This document shows positions 45,819 to 59,428 of a stretch of 64,000 nucleotides of DNA, piece after piece; the stretch's first letter is position 1, and every line of letters begins with the position of its first letter. The DNA is from Turbatrix aceti (Eukaryota; Nematoda; Chromadorea; Rhabditida; Panagrolaimidae), in contig OZ017768.1 of NCBI GenBank assembly GCA_963969345.1, forward strand, positions 10,890,193 through 10,954,192, read 5' to 3'. The notes beneath the pieces are model-generated. The model made no database searches, was not told the DNA's origin, and saw only the letters and a list, made by a program, of their open reading frames with translations. The position numbers were made by a program, and so were the translations under genes.

Positions 45819-48800
45819 ATGATTGCTCAATCACTATTTTGTACAATTTTGTTATGGTGCCTGTTGTGGTGTCTTATCACTCCAGGATACGGTAGACCCG
45901 CCAGTGACGAAGATGAACAGAACGATGTTGATGTCGACGAATATGCCGGGGAGGTGTTCGACTCGTCGACCCTGATCAACGATCGGATGTACTGTTTTAA
46001 GGGCTCTGATTCGGGTCCCTTGGTTCCTCGCATCCTGGTCAATAGACGTCGACAAAAACGATACTCAATTGAAGGTGAGAAAAACAAACAAGAACTTTTT
46101 TTATTGTTTAGTAAAAAAATTGAAATTCAGGCTCATACTGGAGTGTAAAGCAAATCAGCTACCGTATCCGACGAGGCATCCCGGTTATGCCGGATGCAAC
46201 ACTCAAGCGGGTTATTCGGAAGGCTTTTGACGTCTGGGAAAAACGATCACCCCTCAAGTTTGTCTACAAGCATCGGGGACCCGTTGACATCGAGATACTC
46301 TTTGCGAAGGGTCATCACGGAGATGGAGAACCGTTTGACGGACGCGGTAAGTGGTCTTAAAATAATACAGGTGATCATTGGGGTTTTGGGAATTTTTTTC
46401 CGGGATCATTTTTTTGAATTTGGTAAACAGACGAAAAATGAAAATTGACAGACAGTCAAATGACTTTTAAAAAATATTATTTGTTTGATTTATTTTAAAA
46501 CAATTAAATCAAAAATAAATAAAAATTCGCGAACAAAATTTTGTGCGCCGAAAGATTTCAAAAAATATTTCTTTGTTGACACTTTGTTTTAAAAAAAATT
46601 ATATCTTTTTAAATCGGTGTAATTTTTTTGTGAACTTGTTCATTAAGAGGCAGTCCACGACAGGATTTAGGAACAAGGGGAGGACGAGGACAAGGCTTTT
46701 TTACACTATCAAATGTTTTGAGCCAGAATTGTTCCCCACCCCTAGGAAGGTCTAAAACCGCGATACACAGATTTTAAAAAAAATCGGAATCTGTAGTTTT
46801 GGCATCTGGAAGGTTTTGACACAAGTTGATGCCACGCGCTGTGTTCATGAGGAAAAGCGCTGAAAAATTTTTTACAGGGGTTTTTATAGACTGGGAACAC
46901 AATGTCGTTATCAGATTTTTTTTATCGTTACTGTAAGTGCCACTTTTAGGCTAAATTTTTAGGTTTTTTGGCTACCATACTTTTGTTTTTTTGTTGGGGA
47001 AAATGTGATATAGCCTATCTTTTTCCCCGTGTTTTGACGCGTCGAATGAGGTAAAACTCAGAATTTTCTGAATCGGGCTTCATTGCCATCCGCGGGCTTT
47101 TATGGTGCGCACTCGAGAAAACGTGCGCAAAAAACCGCTTTTTCTGTGCGAGTGACAAAAAAACTGCGTGCGCGCACGTAAAAGGAGTCATGTTCAAAAA
47201 AAGGCCCTGAAGCCAATTTTTGATTTTTATGCCTACGGTCACCTGAATAGGCTTTGGCATGTCCCAAATATCACTTTAAGCTAGTTGAGCTTTTTATCGG
47301 ATAATTTTGCACAAAGTTACAGTGTTTGAAAGTTTCATGTTTTTTCAATGCCTGTGGCGGTGCCCAATATTGTCAGATAAAAACCCTGAAAATTTAGAAT
47401 CAATCTTTGGGACATGCTTAAGTCGACCAAATTGACCGCGAGCATAAAAAACAAAAATTGGCTTCAGGGCCTTTTTTTGAATCTGACTCCTTTTACGTGC
47501 GCGCACGCAGTTTTTTTGTCACTCGCAGCGATATTGCGCACGTTTTCTCGAGTGCGCACCATAAAAGCCCGCGGATGGCAATGAAGCCCGATTCAGAAAA
47601 TTCTGAGTTTTACCTCATTCGACGCGTCAAAACACGGGGAAAAAGATAGGCTATATCACATTTTCCCCAACAAAAAAACAAAAGTATGGTAGCCAAAAAA
47701 CCTAAAAATTTAGCCTAAAAGTGGCACTTACAGTAACGATAAAAAAAATCTGATAACGACATTGTGTTCCCAGTCTATAAAAACCCCTGTAAAAAATTTT
47801 TCAGCTCTTTTCCTCATGAACACAGCGCGTGGCATCAACTTGTGTCAAAACCTTCCAGATGCCAAAACTACAGATTCCGATTTTTTTTAAAATCTGTGTA
47901 TCGCGGTTTTAGACCTTCCTAGGGGTGGGGAACAATTCTGGCTCAAAACATTTGATAGTGTAAAAAAGCCTTGTCCTCGGTCCGAAATCCTGTCGTGGAC
48001 TGCCTCTTAAGCTTTTTTATAACTAAAGAAAATACAAATCATTTTTTTTTAATTTTAGGAAAAGTACTTGCGCACGCTTTCTTTCCTCGTTACGGCGGAG
48101 ACGTTCACTTTGACGCATCAGAAAAGTGGTCAGCCAACAAGCACGGTCCCGGCCTTGATCTCTACGCTGTTGCAGTCCATGAAATTGGCCATGCTTTAGG
48201 CCTGAAGCACTCCCAGGAGCCGGCTGCCATCATGGCGCCCTTCTATCAGAAATACACAGGGTCTGACCTATACCTCCATCGCGACGACCTCGCAGCTCTG
48301 CAGAGGCTTTACGGCTTCGGTGACGATGGCCAGAGAAAACCGAAATGGTCACCGCCGCCAGATTTGTGCACTCGATTCCGACTAGACGACATCACGGCGC
48401 TCGCCAATGGCACTATTCTGGCTTTCTCCGGAGACTACTTTTACGAGTTAAAAAATGGAATTTTTGACTTGGATCGCCCGAGGCTTATCTCCGATGTTTG
48501 GAAGAGCGTAGGGGGAAGTATTGATGCCGTGGTCACAGACAACGATGACGATACGTACTTTTTCAAGGTAAGATCAAAAATAAATATATTTGGATTTAAA
48601 GCGAAGTGTGGTTTCAGGGCGTCCAGTACTGGCTGGCTAACCAGGAAGGCAAAATCTACCGTAATTATCCTCAGTTGATTGAGCGAGGACTCGTTTCGAT
48701 GCCCAACGATATTGACGCGGCTTTCATCTGGGGTTACGATGATCAGGCTTATTTTTTCAAAAGTAGGTTTTTTGAACATAAAATTTTTTTATAATTCTAC

Positions 48801-49131: not shown

Positions 49132-49323
49132 GCTCCGATTCTGAGCTAGCACTAAAATTTCCTGTATATTGTTTAGAAAACCATATTTTATAGTTCGAAT
49201 CTGTGTATTTTTCCTTTCCTTGCCGCTTTCTTTTGATTATTGTACTATCCAGGAACAATCGTAATACGTTGACGCTGTCTCACGGTATTTTCATATGCTT
49301 TTTTATTTACTTTCACGATTTGC

Positions 49324-49329
49324 AATAAA
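49324..49329 (+). terminator. Poly(A) signal of the metalloproteinase gene, inside the repeat arm
   Basis: AATAAA, 193 bases after the stop codon. No AATAAA occurs between the stop codon and the repeat border, so transcript end formation probably relies on repeat sequence. Confidence 0.5.
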
Positions 49330-49365
49330 AGCAATCCAACTGTAGTATTAGCAATCATTTTTAAG

Positions 49366-49503
49366 TTTGTGGTAATCCAAAGTCAGCTAACCAATGTTGT
49401 GGGGCGGATCGACGCATTTTTGGATCTCTATCTGCCGTCCTGCATGAGCTGCAGCGTGTGCGTTGCGGTCAATGACGAAGTGAGTTTTTTCTTGCGGGGT
49501 TTC
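49366..49503 (+). pseudogene. Argonaute exon fragment in the left arm
   Basis: This stretch is roughly 85-90% identical to the fourth exon of the Argonaute gene and its donor site (minus strand, 56501-56639). The reading frame is intact and ends in CSVCVAVNDE followed by GTGAGT, exactly as in the Argonaute gene. It is a fragment without the rest of the gene. Confidence 0.88.
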
Positions 49504-49580
49504 TTCTCTCTTCCGTGCATCTAGGTCAATTATCCCCGAGGTGTGTGATTCATAAAAACACGTGGGCGGCGTAAAACCAA

Positions 49581-49651
49581 GCATCGGTGGTTCAGTGGTA
49601 GAATGCTCGCCTGCCACGCGGGCGGCCCGGGTTCGATTCCCGGCCGATGCA
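49581..49651 (+). tRNA. tRNA-Gly (GCC), left copy
   Basis: A 71-nt gene with acceptor stem GCATCGG/CCGATGC, A box TGGTTCAGTGGTAG, anticodon loop around CTGCCAC (GCC at 49613-49615), B box GGTTCGATTCC and discriminator A. No intron. It looks fully functional. Confidence 0.96.
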
Positions 49652-50141
49652 ATCCCTTTTTGACTCCGGAAGATATGGCATGTCATTTTAGGACCTCCGA
49701 ACTTCAATTTCGTGCCCCCTTTATTTTGTTTGTATGAATAAACATTTTTGAAGTCCGAAATTTACTGTAAAAAGTGTTGCTTTTTGCGACACTGCCAAAC
49801 CAGAGTTCTATTCCCGGCTTGTGCTAGCTCTTTTTGTCTCCGGTAATCTTGAGGGTATGGGGAGTATTCCGTATAGCGAAAGACACATATGGTGATCATT
49901 CATGGTGAAAAGCCCTATGGTGAAACGCCTTATGGTAAAAGTTCCTTATATTTACTGTAATCCAACAGTTGCAGCTGTTTGATTAGTGTCAATATCACGA
50001 ACGCAACTGCACCTTGTCAAATTAACCTGTATTTCAGACATTCCAACATTGCAGGTGCACCTTGGTACATAAGTAAATAACAGAATTAATGCTTTCGTCC
50101 TAGCCGGCATTTATATGTATTAGTAACTTTTACGAATAATA

Positions 50142-51859
50142 ATGAAAGTTCTAGCATTTGTTTTTTACATTCAAAATATTCTGTCAATTGCATTGTTCGT
50201 TAAAGTGTGTCCTCCTCATTTCGAGTTCAACGCCACTATAAACAATATCTCCAAGTGCTACGCCAACGTTCACATGAACGGAGAATATCTCGATCAGTGT
50301 GATTATCCCTCAGAATGCCGCTTTCTTCACAACGATTCCATTCCTGTGGTTATCCAAACTGAGGTCGAAAATCAAATACTTTGTATGTTTTTTTGTTTTT
50401 TGTTCGTTAAAATGTCTTTTTACTTTAGTTAATCAGTACAAAGATTACCCTCAAGCTTACATCGGATTGTACTATCCATGCGAAACAAAACCTTTAGTAA
50501 ATGAAAATAATTACACCGAATACTTTGAATGGGTTGATGGGTCGCGTGTCACAATAAATCATTTTAAAAGCAGTCCTTACAACGTTTTTGCAACGATTGG
50601 CAAACACAAGATATATCCCTGGTGGAACCACCAAAATGGCATGCCATTTGAAAATACCTCTAACATCCTTTGCCAAATTGTGCTGGATTCCGATGAGAAT
50701 ACAAATTTCTATTCCATAAACAATACAAATGTTACAGATTGGGACAATGTCGAATTCTACGAGGATGAGTATGAGTTTCCGATGAAATCCGAGCTCGTAG
50801 CATACAGTGGTTTCCATTTTAACATAGGAACTTCTAATTCAATGTTAGTGTTGAGCCTGAGAGTATGCAACACTTTGCTTATGATAGTTCTTGTGTATTT
50901 CATGGCAGAAAACATGTTCTCTAAAAATAGCACAATGAAGGCATCCTACTTTTTCATAGTTTTGTTTGGTTGCGGTTATCAGATTCTATTTGAAATTGTC
51001 GATTTGGTTTTTTATTTTACTTATAATGTAATTCCAATGATATTTATTTTCATTCATCACTTTTTGGCCCAACATAAAAACTTATTCACTGGAATGTGGT
51101 TTATGCTTATGTCGTACAACAGATTTTCAGGTATGTTTTCAAAAACTAAAAACTTTTACAGAGGGTTTTGCAGCCATTATTCTCTGGCGTCGAATGAACT
51201 TGCTCTGGAGTAATTTTTTTACAACCGGGTACATTGTCTTGACCATTGTTATTCCCTTTGCTATCAAGTTTCCTCTTATTCTGCACTGGAACTGTGTGAT
51301 TTATTACGATGATAGCTGTTACAGAACGTATACTTTTATTAACGACTGGTCTAATTATACAAACAGCATATCCGATGCGGTCACTACAACGATATCGGTA
51401 TTGTTCTGCCTGTCAGCTGGATTAACAAGTCGATTTCAAAAATCCGAACAATTTGTTTCAAAACAAATACGAAAAGCTGAAAACATGCTGCTCATACAAA
51501 CATCCATCTTTACAACATTTTACGCGGCGCAAACGATTCTCGTATTCGTTCGTTATAGCCTAGGGCATAATTTAAGACTCGATCCTCGATTCTACCTAAA
51601 AATGAGCAGTGATTTATGCTGGGAATTAGCTATAACATCTCTCATAATCCCTTTTTTTATCTGCAAAACGTGGAAAACAAAAATGTTCCGTTCTTTTTGG
51701 TTGACAAAATTTTTCTCCAAACATTCTTCCAATCGTGTAGTCAGTTTTCTGAAATCTGTTTCAATTATTTTCTATCTAAGTTTGTTTTATTTTTCATTTG
51801 GCGGCATAATTTGTTTTTGGTACCAATATGCGGGCTTTTATGAAGGTACAGCGTTTTAG
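50142..51859 (+). CDS. Serpentine (nematode chemoreceptor-like) 7TM receptor with large ectodomain
   Basis: Three exons, join(50142..50382, 50429..51130, 51174..51859), encode 542 residues. The first 20 residues are hydrophobic (signal-like). About 230 residues follow with paired cysteines (CPPHF, SKCY, DQCDYPSECRF, PCET, ILCQ) and many N-glycosylation sites (NNTN, NIS, NATI). Seven hydrophobic segments then run from VLSLRVCNTLLMIVLVYFMA to ELAITSLIIPFFICKTW. After helix 3 comes MSYNRFSAIILWRRMNLLWS, like the N-R-x-x-A signature of nematode Srg/Srx-type receptors. The acceptor at 51173 was preferred over one at 51161 because it restores this motif. Ordinary nematode chemoreceptors are about 330 residues, so the ectodomain is unusual. 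The gene fills the space between two inverted-repeat arms. Poly(A) signal AATAAA is at 51875. Confidence 0.7.
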
Positions 51860-51997
51860 CTCGATTGATTAAAAAATAAATATACTTAAAATTGTTTTAC
51901 ATGATCAGTGAAAATGTTGTTGTTCACACAGTTATCAATCTGTCGCTCTCTGAAAAACTCTAAATCTGCACGTTTCTCAGCTTATCAGAAGATGTCG
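51860..51997. other. Short spacer between receptor gene and right repeat arm
   Basis: AT-rich; contains the receptor gene's AATAAA signal (51875-51880). Nothing else seen. Confidence 0.5.
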
Positions 51998-52298
51998 AAT
52001 ATAAGGAACTTTTACCAAAAGGCGTTTCACCATAGGGCTTTTCACCATGAATGATCACCATATGTGTCTTTCGCTATACGGAATACTCCCCATACCCTCA
52101 AGATTACCGGAGACAAAAAGAGCTAGCACAAGCCGGGAATAGAACTCTGGTTTGGCAGTGTCGCAAAAAGCAACACTTTTTACAGTAAATTTCGGACTTC
52201 AAAAATGTTTATTCATACAAACAAAATAAAGGGGGCACGAAATTGAAGTTCGGAGGTCCTAAAATGACATGCCATATCTTCCGGAGTCAAAAAGGGAT

Positions 52299-52369
52299 TG
52301 CATCGGCCGGGAATCGAACCCGGGCCGCCCGCGTGGCAGGCGAGCATTCTACCACTGAACCACCGATGC
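52299..52369 (-). tRNA. tRNA-Gly (GCC), right copy
   Basis: Identical inverted copy of the left tRNA. Anticodon GCC is at 52335-52337 on the minus strand. Stems and both internal promoter boxes are intact. Confidence 0.96.
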
Positions 52370-52446
52370 TTGGTTTTACGCCGCCCACGTGTTTTTATGA
52401 ATCACACACCTCGGGGATAATTGACCTAGATGCACGGAAGAGAGAA

Positions 52447-52584
52447 GAAACCCCGCAAGAAAAAACTCACTTCGTCATTGACCGCAACGCACACGCTGCA
52501 GCTCATGCAGGACGGCAGATAGAGATCCAAAAATGCGTCGATCCGCCCCACAACATTGGTTAGCTGACTTTGGATTACCACAAA
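52447..52584 (-). pseudogene. Argonaute exon fragment in the right arm
   Basis: Mirror copy of the fragment at 49366-49503. It lies on the same strand as the Argonaute gene located 4 kb to the right. Confidence 0.88.
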
Positions 52585-52696
52585 CTTAAAAATGATTGCT
52601 AGTACTACAGTTGGATTGCTTTTATTGCAAATCGTGAAAGTAAATAAAAAAGCATATGAAAATACCGTGAGACAGCGTCAACGTATTACGATTGTT

Positions 52697-53293
52697 TTAA
52701 CCTTAAAAGGTCCTATTGCAATCATAACATTTTTGTCAACTCTTCTTTCCGTTTGATTACGGAACTTATTATAGAAGACAAAATCAAGCGGGACCATTAC
52801 TTTGTAAAAAAGTTTCGTTATCAGTATTTTTTACAGGTGATAATAAAAAAAAAGAAAAAAAAAGATTTTTCTTCAGGAACACACTCTACTTGTCGATGTA
52901 CACCGCGTCTTCCCGAAGTTCAGAATGTCGAATGTTTACCATAGAAGACAATGGTAAAACAGGGTTCACCTTTAGCGCTTGTTGTTCAAAGGTGTGTATA
53001 ATACAATAATGTTTGTGGCCATAAATTCAAAAACGTCTTATAGGTTCTGTGTTTTTTAAAAAATCGTAAAAAGTTTTACATGTGTATATACATGTATATA
53101 AACTATGCTTTACCAAGAGAAATACATTGAAGTACGTATAAAATATCGAAATCCGTGAATTGTTTGCGTGTCCTGTGTAGTACTGTTCTTATCACCGCTC
53201 CTCTGAAAGAGTTCTCCATGGTCGCCTGAGTTCTTGTTCATTTCCATTTTTCAGCAGTGTTTAGAGCGGTTGCTTATTGCTTTGCAAGTCGAA
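52697..53293. promoter_or_regulatory. Upstream region of the divergent DEAD-box gene
   Basis: AT-rich, with A runs near 52845-52865. A TTTTTCAG acceptor near 53256 is 37 bases before the helicase ATG and implies an upstream noncoding exon or trans-splicing. No coding frame recognised. Confidence 0.45.
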
Positions 53294-55251
53294 ATGTCTA
53301 GATCTATGGGTTTTTCTAGACCCTCTGCTGCTAGCAGAAATGTTGATTCAACACAGTAAGTGCGGTTTCTAGCAAGATTTAGGGTTTATTATAAATTTTT
53401 TAGTAACGTATTACCTGAAAATCCGAACTCTTATGAACCACAACGTCCCCGTACTAATGGAAATAGAGCCAATCAACGAAGAAATTTTTCGGTTGAAGGC
53501 CCTCCTCCCACACCACGAAATCCATTAATGCGAGACCCTGATCTTCCAGCTGAACACACAGGTCCGGAATACAGACTAGATAAACGTCGCACGTTGCCCC
53601 CGCAAGGTTCGGCGTTTGCTTATCAACCCCGTAGCGTACCTGTACCCCAGCCGGATTCAGCAAGCAATATATTTTTTGATAATGCAGGGAACAAGCGTTC
53701 ACCCGCACCATCAACCAAAAATGCATCCAGCTTTTTTAATGTTGATGACACAGAAACCAACCGCGAGCAGCATGAACAAATGAAAAGGGAGAATTTAGCG
53801 ACATCAGAGCTAAGAGAGGGCTCTGACGTCGAAACCACCCCTTACGTCAATTTTGAACCACTATTGTATGCATTATTTTATCTTGGTGAAAGTTAGTACG
53901 ATATTTTTTTAGGTCATGGATCGACACTCGTCTGGATCATCGGTTAAGACATGTTATTCAAGACAGAAAGTATAAACCACCAACAAAAATCCAGCAAGTG
54001 GTTATACCCCTGATTATGAAAACAAACAGGCACATAAAGTGCCAAAGTGAAACTGGTACTGGAAAAACAGAAGCTTTTCTTCTACCGATTATTAATGAGA
54101 TCCTGGTCAGCAAAGTGGCTTCATGTAACTACTATCCCTACGCCTTGATCATCGAACCCTCAAGAGATGCAGTCGATCAAGTTTATTTTGAGGCTACGTC
54201 ACTCGGTGAACGCTTGGGAATAGCGACATTTAAGATTCACGGAGGAACGGTTTATCCAACAATGCCAAAGGGTTGTGACATTACTTGTGGAACACCGCAA
54301 ACAATTATAAATTTTTATCGACGCAACAAACTATTATTGCAACAACTGCGATACGTTGTTGTTGACGAAGTGGATAAACTTTTAGCCAGAAACAATCAAG
54401 AGAAAGACACATTTCTGGAACTCATAAAAATTACGGTAGGTTTAAGCATTTAAAAACCTTCAAAGGAAAATTACGTTGTTTAGGAGCAAATAAATCCTAG
54501 ATTTATTACGGTATCCGCGACCTTATCCGAATTAAAAATTCGAATTCTGCAAAATGCAATCGTGGCACGCTCTATTTCAATGTCAAATGAACTGGTAGAT
54601 TACAAAATTCTGGTAACAAAAAACTCGTATGCCGACAGATGTTCCCTGCTAGAACAATGTGTGAAAAAAATTCGTAATGAAGACAAGGATTCTAAAATTC
54701 TCATCCTGATGTCTAATCGAGATAATGTTGATGAAGTCTGCGCAAAGTTGACAATGAATGGCTTTCCTTCGATCCAGCTGCACGGAATGCAAGATAACGC
54801 CATGCGCACCGAAGCCATGGAAAATTTTCGGTGGGGCAGCAACAACATTCTGGTTGCAACCCCCGTGGTAGGTCGAACCAGTGACATCATTGGCCTAAAC
54901 TACGTTATCAATTTTGATATCCGCAAACGTATGTCAAAATCAGATTTCATTCAATACGGCGGTCGAACGGGACGCTTCCAGCGAGGCGCTTATATCACAT
55001 TTTACTCACCAGTAGATACCCCTCTTGGAAGAATGATCCAGCAGGTAATTTCTGAAGCTGGTCAGAATCCACCAGAATTTCTGAAGGATCGAATATTACA
55101 TATTAATTCCTTGGAACACACCAAAAGCGAACTAAACCGTCCTTGGACTTATGAAAAAGTCCAGAATGCACGACGACAACCAAAAGACGACCACAGAGCT
55201 GGACCCTCAAACGCTAACGACAACGAATACTATAACGAATTTGATGTATGA
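53294..55251 (+). CDS. Divergent DEAD-box helicase, Vasa/PL10-like, with DEVD box
   Basis: Four exons, join(53294..53355, 53404..53865, 53913..54435, 54484..55251), encode 604 residues. The N-terminal 170 residues are polar and low in complexity (NQRRNFSVEGPPPTPRNP). The core follows: KYKPPTKIQQVVIPLI (Q motif), CQSETGTGKTEAFLLPI (Walker A), IEPSRDAVDQ (motif Ia), CGTPQT (TPxR changed), VVDEVD instead of DEAD, VSAT, and QYGGRTGRFQRG in place of H-R-x-G-R-x-G-R. The layout resembles Vasa/PL10 helicases, which act in germline and translation control. The changed motifs II and VI suggest altered ATP use. It ends 86 bp from the convergent Argonaute gene. Codon and intron structure look like a normal expressed gene, not a pseudogene. 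Confidence 0.83.
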
Positions 55252-55337: not shown

Positions 55338-57962
55338 TTATATAAACCAGTTGATACCATTGCAAAACAGACTATTCAGCCTGTTCACAGCATCGGAGCA
55401 TCCGTCTAGGAGCCCGTTGTCAGACGCTAACTTTGCAAGTTTGTTTCCCTTTTCCTGAAGTCGTTGAACAGTCCGCAGCACTGCCGGCCATCCATCGCCA
55501 GCTCCTTGAAGGCACTGTGCTAGGATGAACTCTCTTACAGCTTCGCCGTCGACGCCGATGGAATCATGAGTGACCTCCACGCGAAGTGGTCGGTGACTTG
55601 GTTTCCCTGTGGAAATCAGGATGCTTTTAGTGCCGTCGCTACCTGAAAACCAAGATCCCGGTTTTAGCTCAAAATCCGTGATGGTGCCGTGATTCTGTGA
55701 GAGCGATAGTAGCAGGATTCCAGCTAGTTTTGTGGGCAGAAGGGCTTCGCGAAGCAAGTTGAGATTCTGCTCAGAGTGGTACAGCCGAATATCAGGCCGG
55801 CAGGTGTCACAAATCGTAAACGCGACGATGGAAAGAGCTGGGTGCTTACGGTAGTCGATGGCACTGGAGAGGAATCGAAGACAGTCAATCAAAACAGACT
55901 GGTCATTCTGTTTGGATCCAAAGACGAAACGACCCGTAAAAACGTGAGGATTGGAACTGCAACTTTTTTTATAACAATTAAATTATATAAATAATTTTTA
56001 CCTAATATTAGCAGCAAAAGCAGCCGTCCAGCCATTGATGCATGCATCTGACGTAACGACATGCCACCCGACCACCAGCACGTTTTCACGACTTAAGTCG
56101 AGCTCCATCGGGCCTACGGGAACCCGTGAAAGAAGTCCTAGTTTTTCACAAATTATTTTGGAGAGTGCCTTGAGCGTCGAACGGTGCCCGGCAGCCAAGG
56201 AGAGAGATACTGAGGGACTGACGTAGTGAGTAGCAACGCCGTGGCCGACGCCTTCAGCAAGTAAAATACAATTCTTGACATTTGGAATGTCTTGGGGGGA
56301 TAAGTCTACGAAAACTACTAATTGAGCCGGGTTTCGACGTGAGGTTATTTCAACGTGAAGAACCTTAAAAAAATTACAGTGATTAGTCCTGTTAGGGTTG
56401 TGCGCATCTCTTTTCCTTGCATCAAAACCTTGATAACACATATTATTTCATGCGAGACCTTGTTCTTCCAGCTGAACACACAGGTCAGAAATACAGACGC
56501 GAAACTCCGCAAGAAAAAAACTCACTTCGTCATTGACTGCCACGCACACGCTGCAGCTCACGCAGGGCGGCAGGTAGGGATCCAAAAATGCATTGATCCG
56601 CTTCACAACATCGATTAGCTGGCTTTGACTCACCACAAATTCGACAACAACGTTCGCCGCTTCGCTCGATTGTTCTTTGTGCGGGAAAAAAAAAGTGTCA
56701 ATTCTTTTCGTTGGCATCGAGCGCATCACAAGCGGACACACCTATGAAGGGAGGAGGTTGTCTTAGTTAGGACTAGATAGAAATACTTACAGGCGACCAT
56801 GCTGTTGATCGTAAAAACCCAATGTTATGCAACTCGCCGGCCATGGCTTTAATGAGTTTTGTGAGATTTTCTATATTCAAAGGTTGTTTTTTGTTCAACG
56901 AGTAACTCAAAAAAGGGGGTGGCTTTTGGTTGGCCATAAGCATGAGGTGACGCGAGGATATGATGTATCGTCGTCGGTGCTCGGGATTTGTGGATACCGT
57001 GGTCCATTTTCTGAAACAAGAAACACATTGGTTTTGTCAATTATGTAAATATTGATACCTATGTTTTCAATTTTGTTCAAAAAATACTTACAAATCCCTG
57101 GAAACATTTTCTATTATATAAATTTTTGTCGGGTCATCGATTGAAAACACACGTAATCCAACAACAGATTTTCTGAATCCGAAATTCTGGACCGCATCAA
57201 AAACTATGTTTTCGGATACTCTCGCTTCTCGGTCAAACCACATTGTAACCAATCCACCAGTCGTGAAAGCCAGTCGTAGAAAGGTTACGGTAGTCATACC
57301 GGATGAATGGACTCGTTCTTTCGTGACGAGACTCACAGGATCGTCGTACATGATTTTTTTAAGATGCCTACAAAATGTTTTTACCGAACAAGAAATAAGA
57401 GTTTGCTTTACATATTGTGTCCTAGAACAAAAGTCAGAAGCTTGGTGACGTCATCGATGCATGCCTGCATCGGCAGAGCTGAAAGACCATCGTAGCGGAG
57501 GGTGCACTTGATACCGGGACTTTTAAAGTTTTGTCCAAGTTCATCAGAAGTTAAAATTCCAACTTTTGTGCGGTCACGTTGATCTCGGTTCTTTTGAAAA
57601 ATTTTCTGGGGCTCGGTGAGCGAAGGACAAGAAGCTGGCATGAAGCCTTCGAGTGCCAGAAAATGTACCGTAATAGGTTTGGGTACAATATACAAGTCAG
57701 ATACAGTTTCCTTTTTCGTGCCAAAACAAAATGGGTTTTCGAAGAACACAATACGGTTTCCCGGATACAGGTAAGGTCCCGTAATCTGGGCTCTATCATT
57801 TAACAGCCGACAGACCAAATCCTTGACCAGGTAATCTGAAGTCGACCCGAATGATCGATTCTCCTGGGTCAGTGGAGCGACTCGGAGCACGCCGTGGCTA
57901 ACGAGCAGCAGCCCCGCAAGCGGTGAGACCTCGAATCGATTGACGTGGCCACCTTGCATCAT
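55338..57962 (-). CDS. Argonaute, WAGO-like, with altered slicer site
   Basis: Argonautes bind small RNAs and silence targets. Six exons, complement(55338..55956, 56002..56363, 56526..56741, 56791..57010, 57092..57367, 57412..57962), encode 747 residues. The N-terminal half (HVNRFEVSPLAGLL, ... GIKCTLRYDGLSAL) fits the N and linker regions; a PAZ-like stretch lies near 230-275 (VVGLRVFSIDDP). MID is around 425-500 (AQLVVFVDLSPQDIPNVKNC, LSKIICEKLGLLSRVPV). PIWI follows: NVLVVGWHVVTSDACINGWTAAF, IVAFTICDTC, and STGKPSHRPLRVEV. The first catalytic Asp is a His (H522); D592 and H663 align with the later Asp and His. Slicing is therefore unlikely, as in nematode WAGOs. A short upstream ATG frame (about 57981) overlaps the start. 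Fourth-exon sequence is copied in the inverted repeats at 49.4 and 52.5 kb. Confidence 0.82.
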
Positions 57963-59428
57963 TTTGAAGCCTCATGCATTGCTGAAAAATGGACAGCGAA
58001 ATCATGAAATTCCCAAGTTGTCATTGACAAGCATACGGACGAAGGTAATAAAATCCGCTTCAGGACAATTCGCGGAGGGGGGGCTATTATGATGTTGTCC
58101 CATTAAATTCCGAAAAACGGACCCCATTTTGAGGTCTACATGCACTCCCTGGAGTAAAGAGAGAGTTGTTTTTTGCAGTTTGAAAGTCACAAAATACGCA
58201 CTTACAAAACCTTCCTGAAGTTACTTGGTGGCCAATCTTTAGAAAAAACAGTCATTACCACACCCATGCTCAGATGCTTATTGTTCGTTTGAACCATAAA
58301 ACCGTTATGCTTTTCAAGCAAAAAAGTCCTACGAAAATTAATTATTTATAAAATATCTGTAAATTAAAATAAAATAAGGGGTACTTAAAAAAATCAACTG
58401 ATTTTGAAATTTTCTAATAATAACTCCTCATTTCATTATTTTCAATAAATGTTTCGGTATTTGTACATTGTCAGATCGATCGGTCTGCAAATTCTGTTTT
58501 GCAAAACTTCATAAAGATTGGCATTCAAGAAGCTTCGGAAAGTTCTTTTTTTTAAATTTTTTTTTGTAAAAAAATGTTTGTATTAATATGTACAGTAATC
58601 TGATTTTACTGTTTTTCAAACTATGATTTACAAAAATTGGAGCAGTTATACAACTCAGTTTTTATCAAAAAACAAAAGAATCAACTGACTTTTTGAGTTC
58701 TTGGAAAACAATTTAGTAATTAGTCATCACACATCCGGTCAAATCAGGTACCCTTGCACATTCATCCATTCACATCAGACAATTCCAGCTAAATCATCGT
58801 GTCTAATGCAAAAAGTCACGTCTTCTCCGTTGCATTTATTTTTAAATCTTATTCAAAAAATTTAAAACAGTCTTTCCAACAACACAATGCCCGCCCAAAA
58901 AAAGCGCATACATAAACGGCGTTCATTGTCAGAATCAAATAAAAAATCAAGACACACAAATCGGGCAAAACCCTCCCGAAAACGGAACGGAAAAAGAACG
59001 TAAAGATGTGTCGTCTTGAATGCTGCCTAGCCTCCTCATGCGGCGGCTGCAGTCAATCACAATCGTCGCAATTGTTAAGCACAGGACGTAACCCGGCTTC
59101 TTTCCACTAGCCACACCTCTTCTACAGAATTGGGCTTGCTTGTAATGTTTTTGTGTTCCTCAAATTGGAAGGGAAGGCATAACCGCACGAAAAAAAAGGG
59201 TCCGTTCAAAAAAAAGACTGCCGGCACTCCTCATCGCCCGCCCAATGCTTTTTGTCCTCTCCGGTGGTGGTCTTGCCGCCGACGCCTTCGTGCCTGGTCT
59301 TTATTACATTGTCGGGGGGTACAAGGAGCCAACAAAATTGCACCCACACCCAAAACCCCGTGCGTACAAATTTATTACAAAAAAATGGAAAGCCAGAAAT
59401 TGCAAAAAAAGAAAGAAATTGTTGCTCA
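57963..59428. other. Intergenic DNA between Argonaute and macro/FLYWCH gene
   Basis: AT-rich left two-thirds; GC-richer near 59030-59330. No coding exon recognised. A TTTTTCAG (minus strand) ends about 25 bases before the Argonaute ATG. The right end holds the 3' UTR of the macro/FLYWCH gene. Confidence 0.5.

Follow-up and report, generated by a model that had tools for sequence, protein, structure and literature searches.

A 699-bp inverted repeat around an Srx-like receptor gene in Turbatrix aceti, read as the scar of a recent rearrangement at an old Mutator/Foldback-type element

The closest described relative of the elements discussed here is Tm1, a Mutator/Foldback family of root-knot nematodes, in which two asymmetric short end motifs, A1 and A2, lie outside the inverted repeat (PMC3169594). 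Tm1 elements have an internal repeat unit of about 14 bp, 9-bp duplications, a MULE transposase and MITE-like derivatives, and some copies are proposed to have picked up host sequence (PMC3169594). Other known systems produce inverted repeats around a segment of DNA. A staggered-break inversion in Drosophila leaves a fragment of one breakpoint at each end of the inverted segment, the two copies being inverted relative to each other (PMC5080602). Galileo inversions have opposite copies of the element at both ends; ectopic recombination between copies predicts exchanged target-site duplications, and a hybrid-element model is also discussed (PMC2775673). In the alternative transposition of maize Ac/fAc, paired element ends invert neighbouring DNA, and the junctions fall precisely at the termini (PMC8225341). 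The maintained inverted repeats of Caenorhabditis have long near-perfect arms, possibly kept alike by gene conversion (PMC1803023).

Here we analyse an inverted repeat in a 64,000-nucleotide stretch of the Turbatrix aceti genome (the window), whose arms flank a chemoreceptor gene and end at the terminus of a transposon of the Mutator/Foldback type. The reading that fits it best is a scar left when a small rearrangement took place recently, neither a new mobile unit nor a genetic switch. We see modest novelty in it: an old transposon-derived segment that carries a passenger tRNA gene was recently duplicated in inverted orientation, possibly as part of a small inversion.

The inverted-repeat arms and their contents

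The arms, the interval that they enclose and the genes and fragments found in them are as follows, in window coordinates.

49254-49952, plus strand: left arm, 699 bp, with 2 mismatches to the right arm; read as the inverted copy
49953-51997, no strand: enclosed interval, 2,045 bp
51998-52696, minus strand: right arm, 699 bp; read as most of the original element
49366-49503, plus strand: fragment in the left arm (arm positions 113-250), 87% identical to 56501-56639 on the minus strand
52447-52584, minus strand: fragment in the right arm, mirror counterpart of 49366-49503
56501-56639, minus strand: source or sister copy of the arm fragment
49581-49651, plus strand: tRNA-Gly(GCC) gene in the left arm (ARAGORN; Rfam, 66.7 bits), with a run of five T downstream
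52299-52369, minus strand: tRNA-Gly(GCC) gene in the right arm (ARAGORN; Rfam, 66.7 bits)
49800-49843, plus strand: decayed repeat (77%) of the 3' part of the tRNA and its downstream flank
50142-51859, plus strand: intact Srx-like 7TM chemoreceptor gene, with exons 50142-50382, 50429-51130 and 51174-51859

A preliminary description had reported equal inverted repeats around the interval, and their coordinates and lengths are borne out. It had noted that the arms appear nearly identical, and a base-by-base alignment finds just two differences (49348 against 52602, and 49932 against 52018), an identity of 99.7% over 699 bp, far above chance. The 60 bp past the arm edges are unlike, both on the outer side (747 of 1000 shuffles reach its score of 12) and on the inner side (score 13, reached by 769 of 1000). 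We searched the window's own genome (59,928,900 bases in 28 contigs) for further copies. The full-length arm appears twice among the 48 matches listed genome-wide, both times at this locus, and at least 46 matches are partial (40 of 63 candidates scored). The first 228 bp of the interval occur once in the genome search.

By its matches, each arm is a mosaic. From the outer to the inner edge, it consists of a stretch without other listed matches, the 87% fragment, the tRNA gene, the decayed-tRNA stretch and the transposon end. The tRNA-Gly gene described for each arm is there in both, found by two programs. All 71 bases are the same in the five other genomic copies examined (L004-L008), so the gene looks like a passenger. 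The fragments had been taken for pieces of an Argonaute gene, an identification that we do not retain: the Piwi domain has 45 matches genome-wide and none inside the window, and five minus-strand ORFs compared with Pfam around the fragment source (55338-57971) match no domain. In the same area, positions 56447-56498 are 90% identical to 53525-53576 over 52 bp, which pairs the fragment-source region with an ORF that directly precedes a DEAD-box helicase ORF; on this alignment the neighbourhood of the source carries several small duplicated pieces.

The window has a second inverted repeat 2 kb away, with arms at 46685-47130 and 47534-47979 (446 bp, 100% complementary as reported), a spacer of 403 bp and a further inner pair of 136 bp. 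It belongs to a dispersed family of palindromic elements, with at least 42 matches (40 of 463 candidates scored).

The three-exon receptor gene described between the arms stands. Its exons give one stop-free protein, with intron 2 taken as 43 bp (a 31-bp alternative is equally in frame), and the protein is a 7TM receptor of Srx-like type: residues 299-447 match Pfam PF10328 (7TM_GPCR_Srx) with an E-value of 1.1e-4 and 22.4 bits, just missing the cut-off of 23.8. Its start codon lies 189 bp from the left arm, and its end 138 bp from the right arm. Paralogues are numerous: at least 98 matches to single exons have an E-value of 1 or better, three of them in the gene itself (80 of 287 candidates scored), and those at C4:1451558, C2:2989289 and C4:447721 pass the Srx cut-off. 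The best other match by E-value, among those listed, has 43% identity over residues 79-532, and short pieces of other paralogues, again among the matches listed, reach up to 65%. As judged from these matches, the receptor is an ordinary member of a large family. A protein search returned no relatives at E 0.001 or better among 2867 candidates.

We considered and rejected a fourth exon entering the right arm: by eye, paralogues L011, L013 and L014 end no more than a few residues from where the three-exon gene does. In paralogue L018 the frame continues past that end for some 25 residues, also by eye. The receptor and its paralogues share an extracellular part of about 210 residues (50142-51129) that appears by eye to be C-type lectin-like. 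This assignment was dropped. The top solved-structure match to a profile of the ectodomain is the mannose receptor at a weak E-value of 0.21, Pfam matches no lectin domain in the receptor, and a predicted model of the exon-2 part alone is uninformative (mean pLDDT 52.9, with residues 1-130 under 50).

Transposon ends and target-site duplications

The following features lie at the edges of the arms.

49856-49950, plus strand: left-arm transposon end at arm positions 603-697, with its terminus (49952) facing the receptor
52000-52094, minus strand: right-arm transposon end, with its terminus (51998) facing the receptor
52697-52723, minus strand: candidate degenerate A2-type end, the 27 bp just outside the right arm

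The inner 95 bp of the arm match dispersed copies at 78-88% where about 90 bp or more align. The elements of this family have two unlike ends, for which we take over the Tm1 names, A1 = GGTATAAGGAMCG and A2 = GATTGTAGGAMCG. We scanned for both ends, allowing up to 2 substitutions, in 20 loci that had all been picked by their match to the arm (L019-L038). Both ends are present in 10 of the 20, one A1 and one A2 each, with an additional A1 in L023; the remaining 10 have a single end, unpaired ends or no end. The 9-mers flanking the ten two-ended loci agree at 9/9 positions in six cases, 8/9 in two and 2/9 in two, and in these last two the flanks align by eye once shifted one base. The element at L030:531-2482 (L030 being C1:1427800-1430800) has 261-bp inverted repeats at 99% identity and a 9/9 flanking duplication. 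Between its repeats lies a MULE transposase match above the cut-off (C1:1428608-1428829, 30.6 bits), and this element is a possible source of transposase for the family. None of the nine MULE matches found falls in the window, and neither the 83-aa ORF nor the 30-residue piece of the arm that we compared with Pfam has a match. For an 866-bp family member, at least 133 pieces match on one strand or the other (40 of 111 candidates scored), and many of these belong together, two or more to a palindromic copy. Among seven loci examined, several Mutator-type copies are long near-perfect palindromes, as in L019 (309 bp at 100%).

The inner edges of both arms start AATATAAGGAAC, and family copies start GGTATAAGGAAC or GGTATAAGGACC. 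The arm edge coincides with the A1 terminus to within 0-2 bp, with the family GG changed to AA in both arms. Repeat units of 15 bp occupy 49902-49941 in the A1 end of the left arm. Since the A1 termini face inward at both arms, the receptor lies outside the transposon ends.

A candidate for the other end adjoins the right arm. The A2-type match at 52697-52723 has a score reached by 5 of 1000 simple shuffles, as the best of three end sequences; at the same site a second A2 form is reached by 73 and the A1 end by 84 of 1000, and six such tests were run. Among 4264 windows of 60 bp, 32 score 22 or more; eight of these are at the arm ends and one is the 52697-52723 site. Beyond the left arm the A2 score is 13, reached by 600 of 1000 shuffles, and a second element end in the left flank was rejected at this shuffle level. 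With a candidate A2-like end beyond the right arm and none beyond the left, the original element would be the one on the right, and the left arm would be a copy of 699 of its 726 bp, though the match is weak. At one of the two arm differences, 49932/52018, the left-arm base is the usual one among the family copies compared, so it would be the right arm that changed after copying.

Target-site duplications were looked for in these flanks. Compared with their own flanks, the right element has 3/9 and the left arm 2/9, and an arm that is a complete fresh insertion was rejected for want of a duplication. Had the interval been inverted, one copy of the original 9-bp duplication would now flank the A2 end on the right and the other the A1 end of the left arm. 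The exchanged pairing of the A2 flank with the left-arm A1 flank agrees at 6/9, against 3/9 for the unexchanged pairing with the right-arm A1 flank. This is a post hoc hint that weakly points to an inverted interval: 6/9 or better is reached by a random 9-mer at 553 of 23,982 positions (P about 0.02), and when the A2 position is moved 2 bases (shifts up to 3 were tried) the unexchanged pairing rises to 5/9. The new duplication expected of hybrid-element transposition, between the left outer and the reversed right inner flank, is absent at 2/9; it may have disappeared along with the 27 bp that would have been lost on the left. The outer flanks of the whole composite agree at 4/9, and further pairings of the arm flanks at 2/9, 2/9 and 1/9.

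Origin, age and rival readings

We tentatively prefer a reading to which we give somewhat less than an even chance, in which an old element, now the right arm, was recently copied in inverted orientation across the receptor by aberrant transposition or by a staggered-break inversion. The right arm and the next 27 bp (51998-52723, 726 bp) would be an old, decayed Mutator/Foldback-type element that contained the tRNA-Gly gene and a fragment related to neighbouring sequence. In one recent rearrangement, 699 of the 726 bp would then have been copied, inverted, to the far side of the receptor. In one variant, hybrid-element transposition, ends on two sister chromatids would act together and insert nearby, and the segment between would be inverted. 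In the other, a staggered-break inversion, the element would be a single-stranded overhang filled in on both sides. Both variants would yield the order L - A' - inverted interval - A - R, and the view in the preliminary description that such arms could invert the enclosed gene is reasonable; some inversions do leave this structure. Observed directly are the arms, their boundary within 0-2 bp of the element terminus and the element family, all of which fit this reading; the second end, the choice of the right arm as the original, the inversion and the enzyme are inferred. The A2-type end and the 6/9 pairing, both found after looking, weakly favour this reading. Three points count against it: as the left flank has no A2 end, 27 bp must have been lost there; as the element was already decayed, its recognition by transposase is doubtful; and the new target-site duplication that the hybrid-element variant predicts is not seen, which makes that variant less probable.

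At an assumed 1.5e-9 to 1e-8 mutations per site per generation, two differences in 699 bp date the separation of the arms to some 1.4e5 to 9.5e5 generations ago, provided that no gene conversion has occurred since. That the arms are either young or kept alike by gene conversion, as proposed earlier, is reasonable at this number of differences, and in our preferred reading their identity would reflect youth, of the order of 1e5 to 1e6 generations, with or without conversion.

The most serious rival, possible although less probable, is a plain inverted segmental duplication by template switching during replication. The gene would not have been inverted, and the boundary at the terminus would be a coincidence or a stall site. 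Inverted duplications of this kind require no transposase, and the abrupt, nearly identical arms and the junctions without a 9-bp duplication are what it would leave; long near-perfect inverted repeats have also been reported in C. elegans (PMC1803023). Against it, a random breakpoint would be unlikely to land 0-2 bp from the element terminus, as one boundary does here, and the better match of the exchanged pairing (6/9, against 3/9 unexchanged) is a hint that the interval was inverted.

That hint serves equally well for two opposite insertions of the same element, either kept alike by gene conversion or later recombined as in Galileo, since exchanged target-site duplications would yield the same 6/9 pairing. 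The termini do face the receptor from both sides, and there is a precedent in Drosophila (PMC2775673). We nevertheless consider this origin improbable: no other full copy occurs among the matches listed, the left copy lacks a second end, the right copy lacks a target-site duplication of its own (3/9), and the identity ends abruptly.

It is more improbable still that the element flipped the receptor by hybrid-element transposition and left arms competent to recombine, such that the receptor still flips and both orientations occur in the population. A functional reversible inversion switch, or a hairpin-RNA locus controlling the receptor, is very unlikely. Arms of 699 bp at 99.7% with a 2-kb spacer could recombine, and the left arm is close to the start codon (189 bp), but the window's other long near-perfect inverted repeat is a dispersed element. 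As a switch the locus would matter more, if this were true. An assembly artefact has equally little to recommend it, as the arms differ at 2 sites, the outer flanks are unique and the contig is 11.6 Mb long. Finally, a new gene-carrying mobile unit, proposed in the preliminary description, is rejected: the termini face the gene, the full arm is found only as this pair among the matches listed, the start of the interval occurs once, and the outer flanks of the composite agree at just 4/9.

If aberrant transposition is the true origin, the locus would be a small, datable animal case of a Mutator-type inversion, with most of the element at both breakpoints, to set beside the inversions made by a hAT element in maize and by Galileo in Drosophila. 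The locus also illustrates one route by which tRNA genes can be copied beside members of a large receptor family.

Comparison with known systems

The Caenorhabditis repeats described in PMC1803023 are pairs of paralogous genes with short spacers that are also found in sister species; here a single gene lies in the spacer. Maize Ac/fAc elements are of the hAT type with 8-bp duplications at the junctions, and this locus has none. Galileo inversions differ in that the exchange here reaches only 6/9 and one copy is without an end. The locus is like the staggered-break inversions of Drosophila in having an inverted duplication at both ends of a segment, and unlike them in spanning only 2 kb and in having a transposon terminus at one boundary. 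With respect to Tm1, the locus is unusual in that the receptor is outside the element ends; of the two ends of the arm one is good and the other doubtful, and no clear duplication flanks it. The family to which the arm edges belong is closely like Tm1, with A1/A2 ends, 9-bp duplications, a MULE transposase and a repeat unit of 15 bp, against about 14 bp in Tm1 (PMC3169594).
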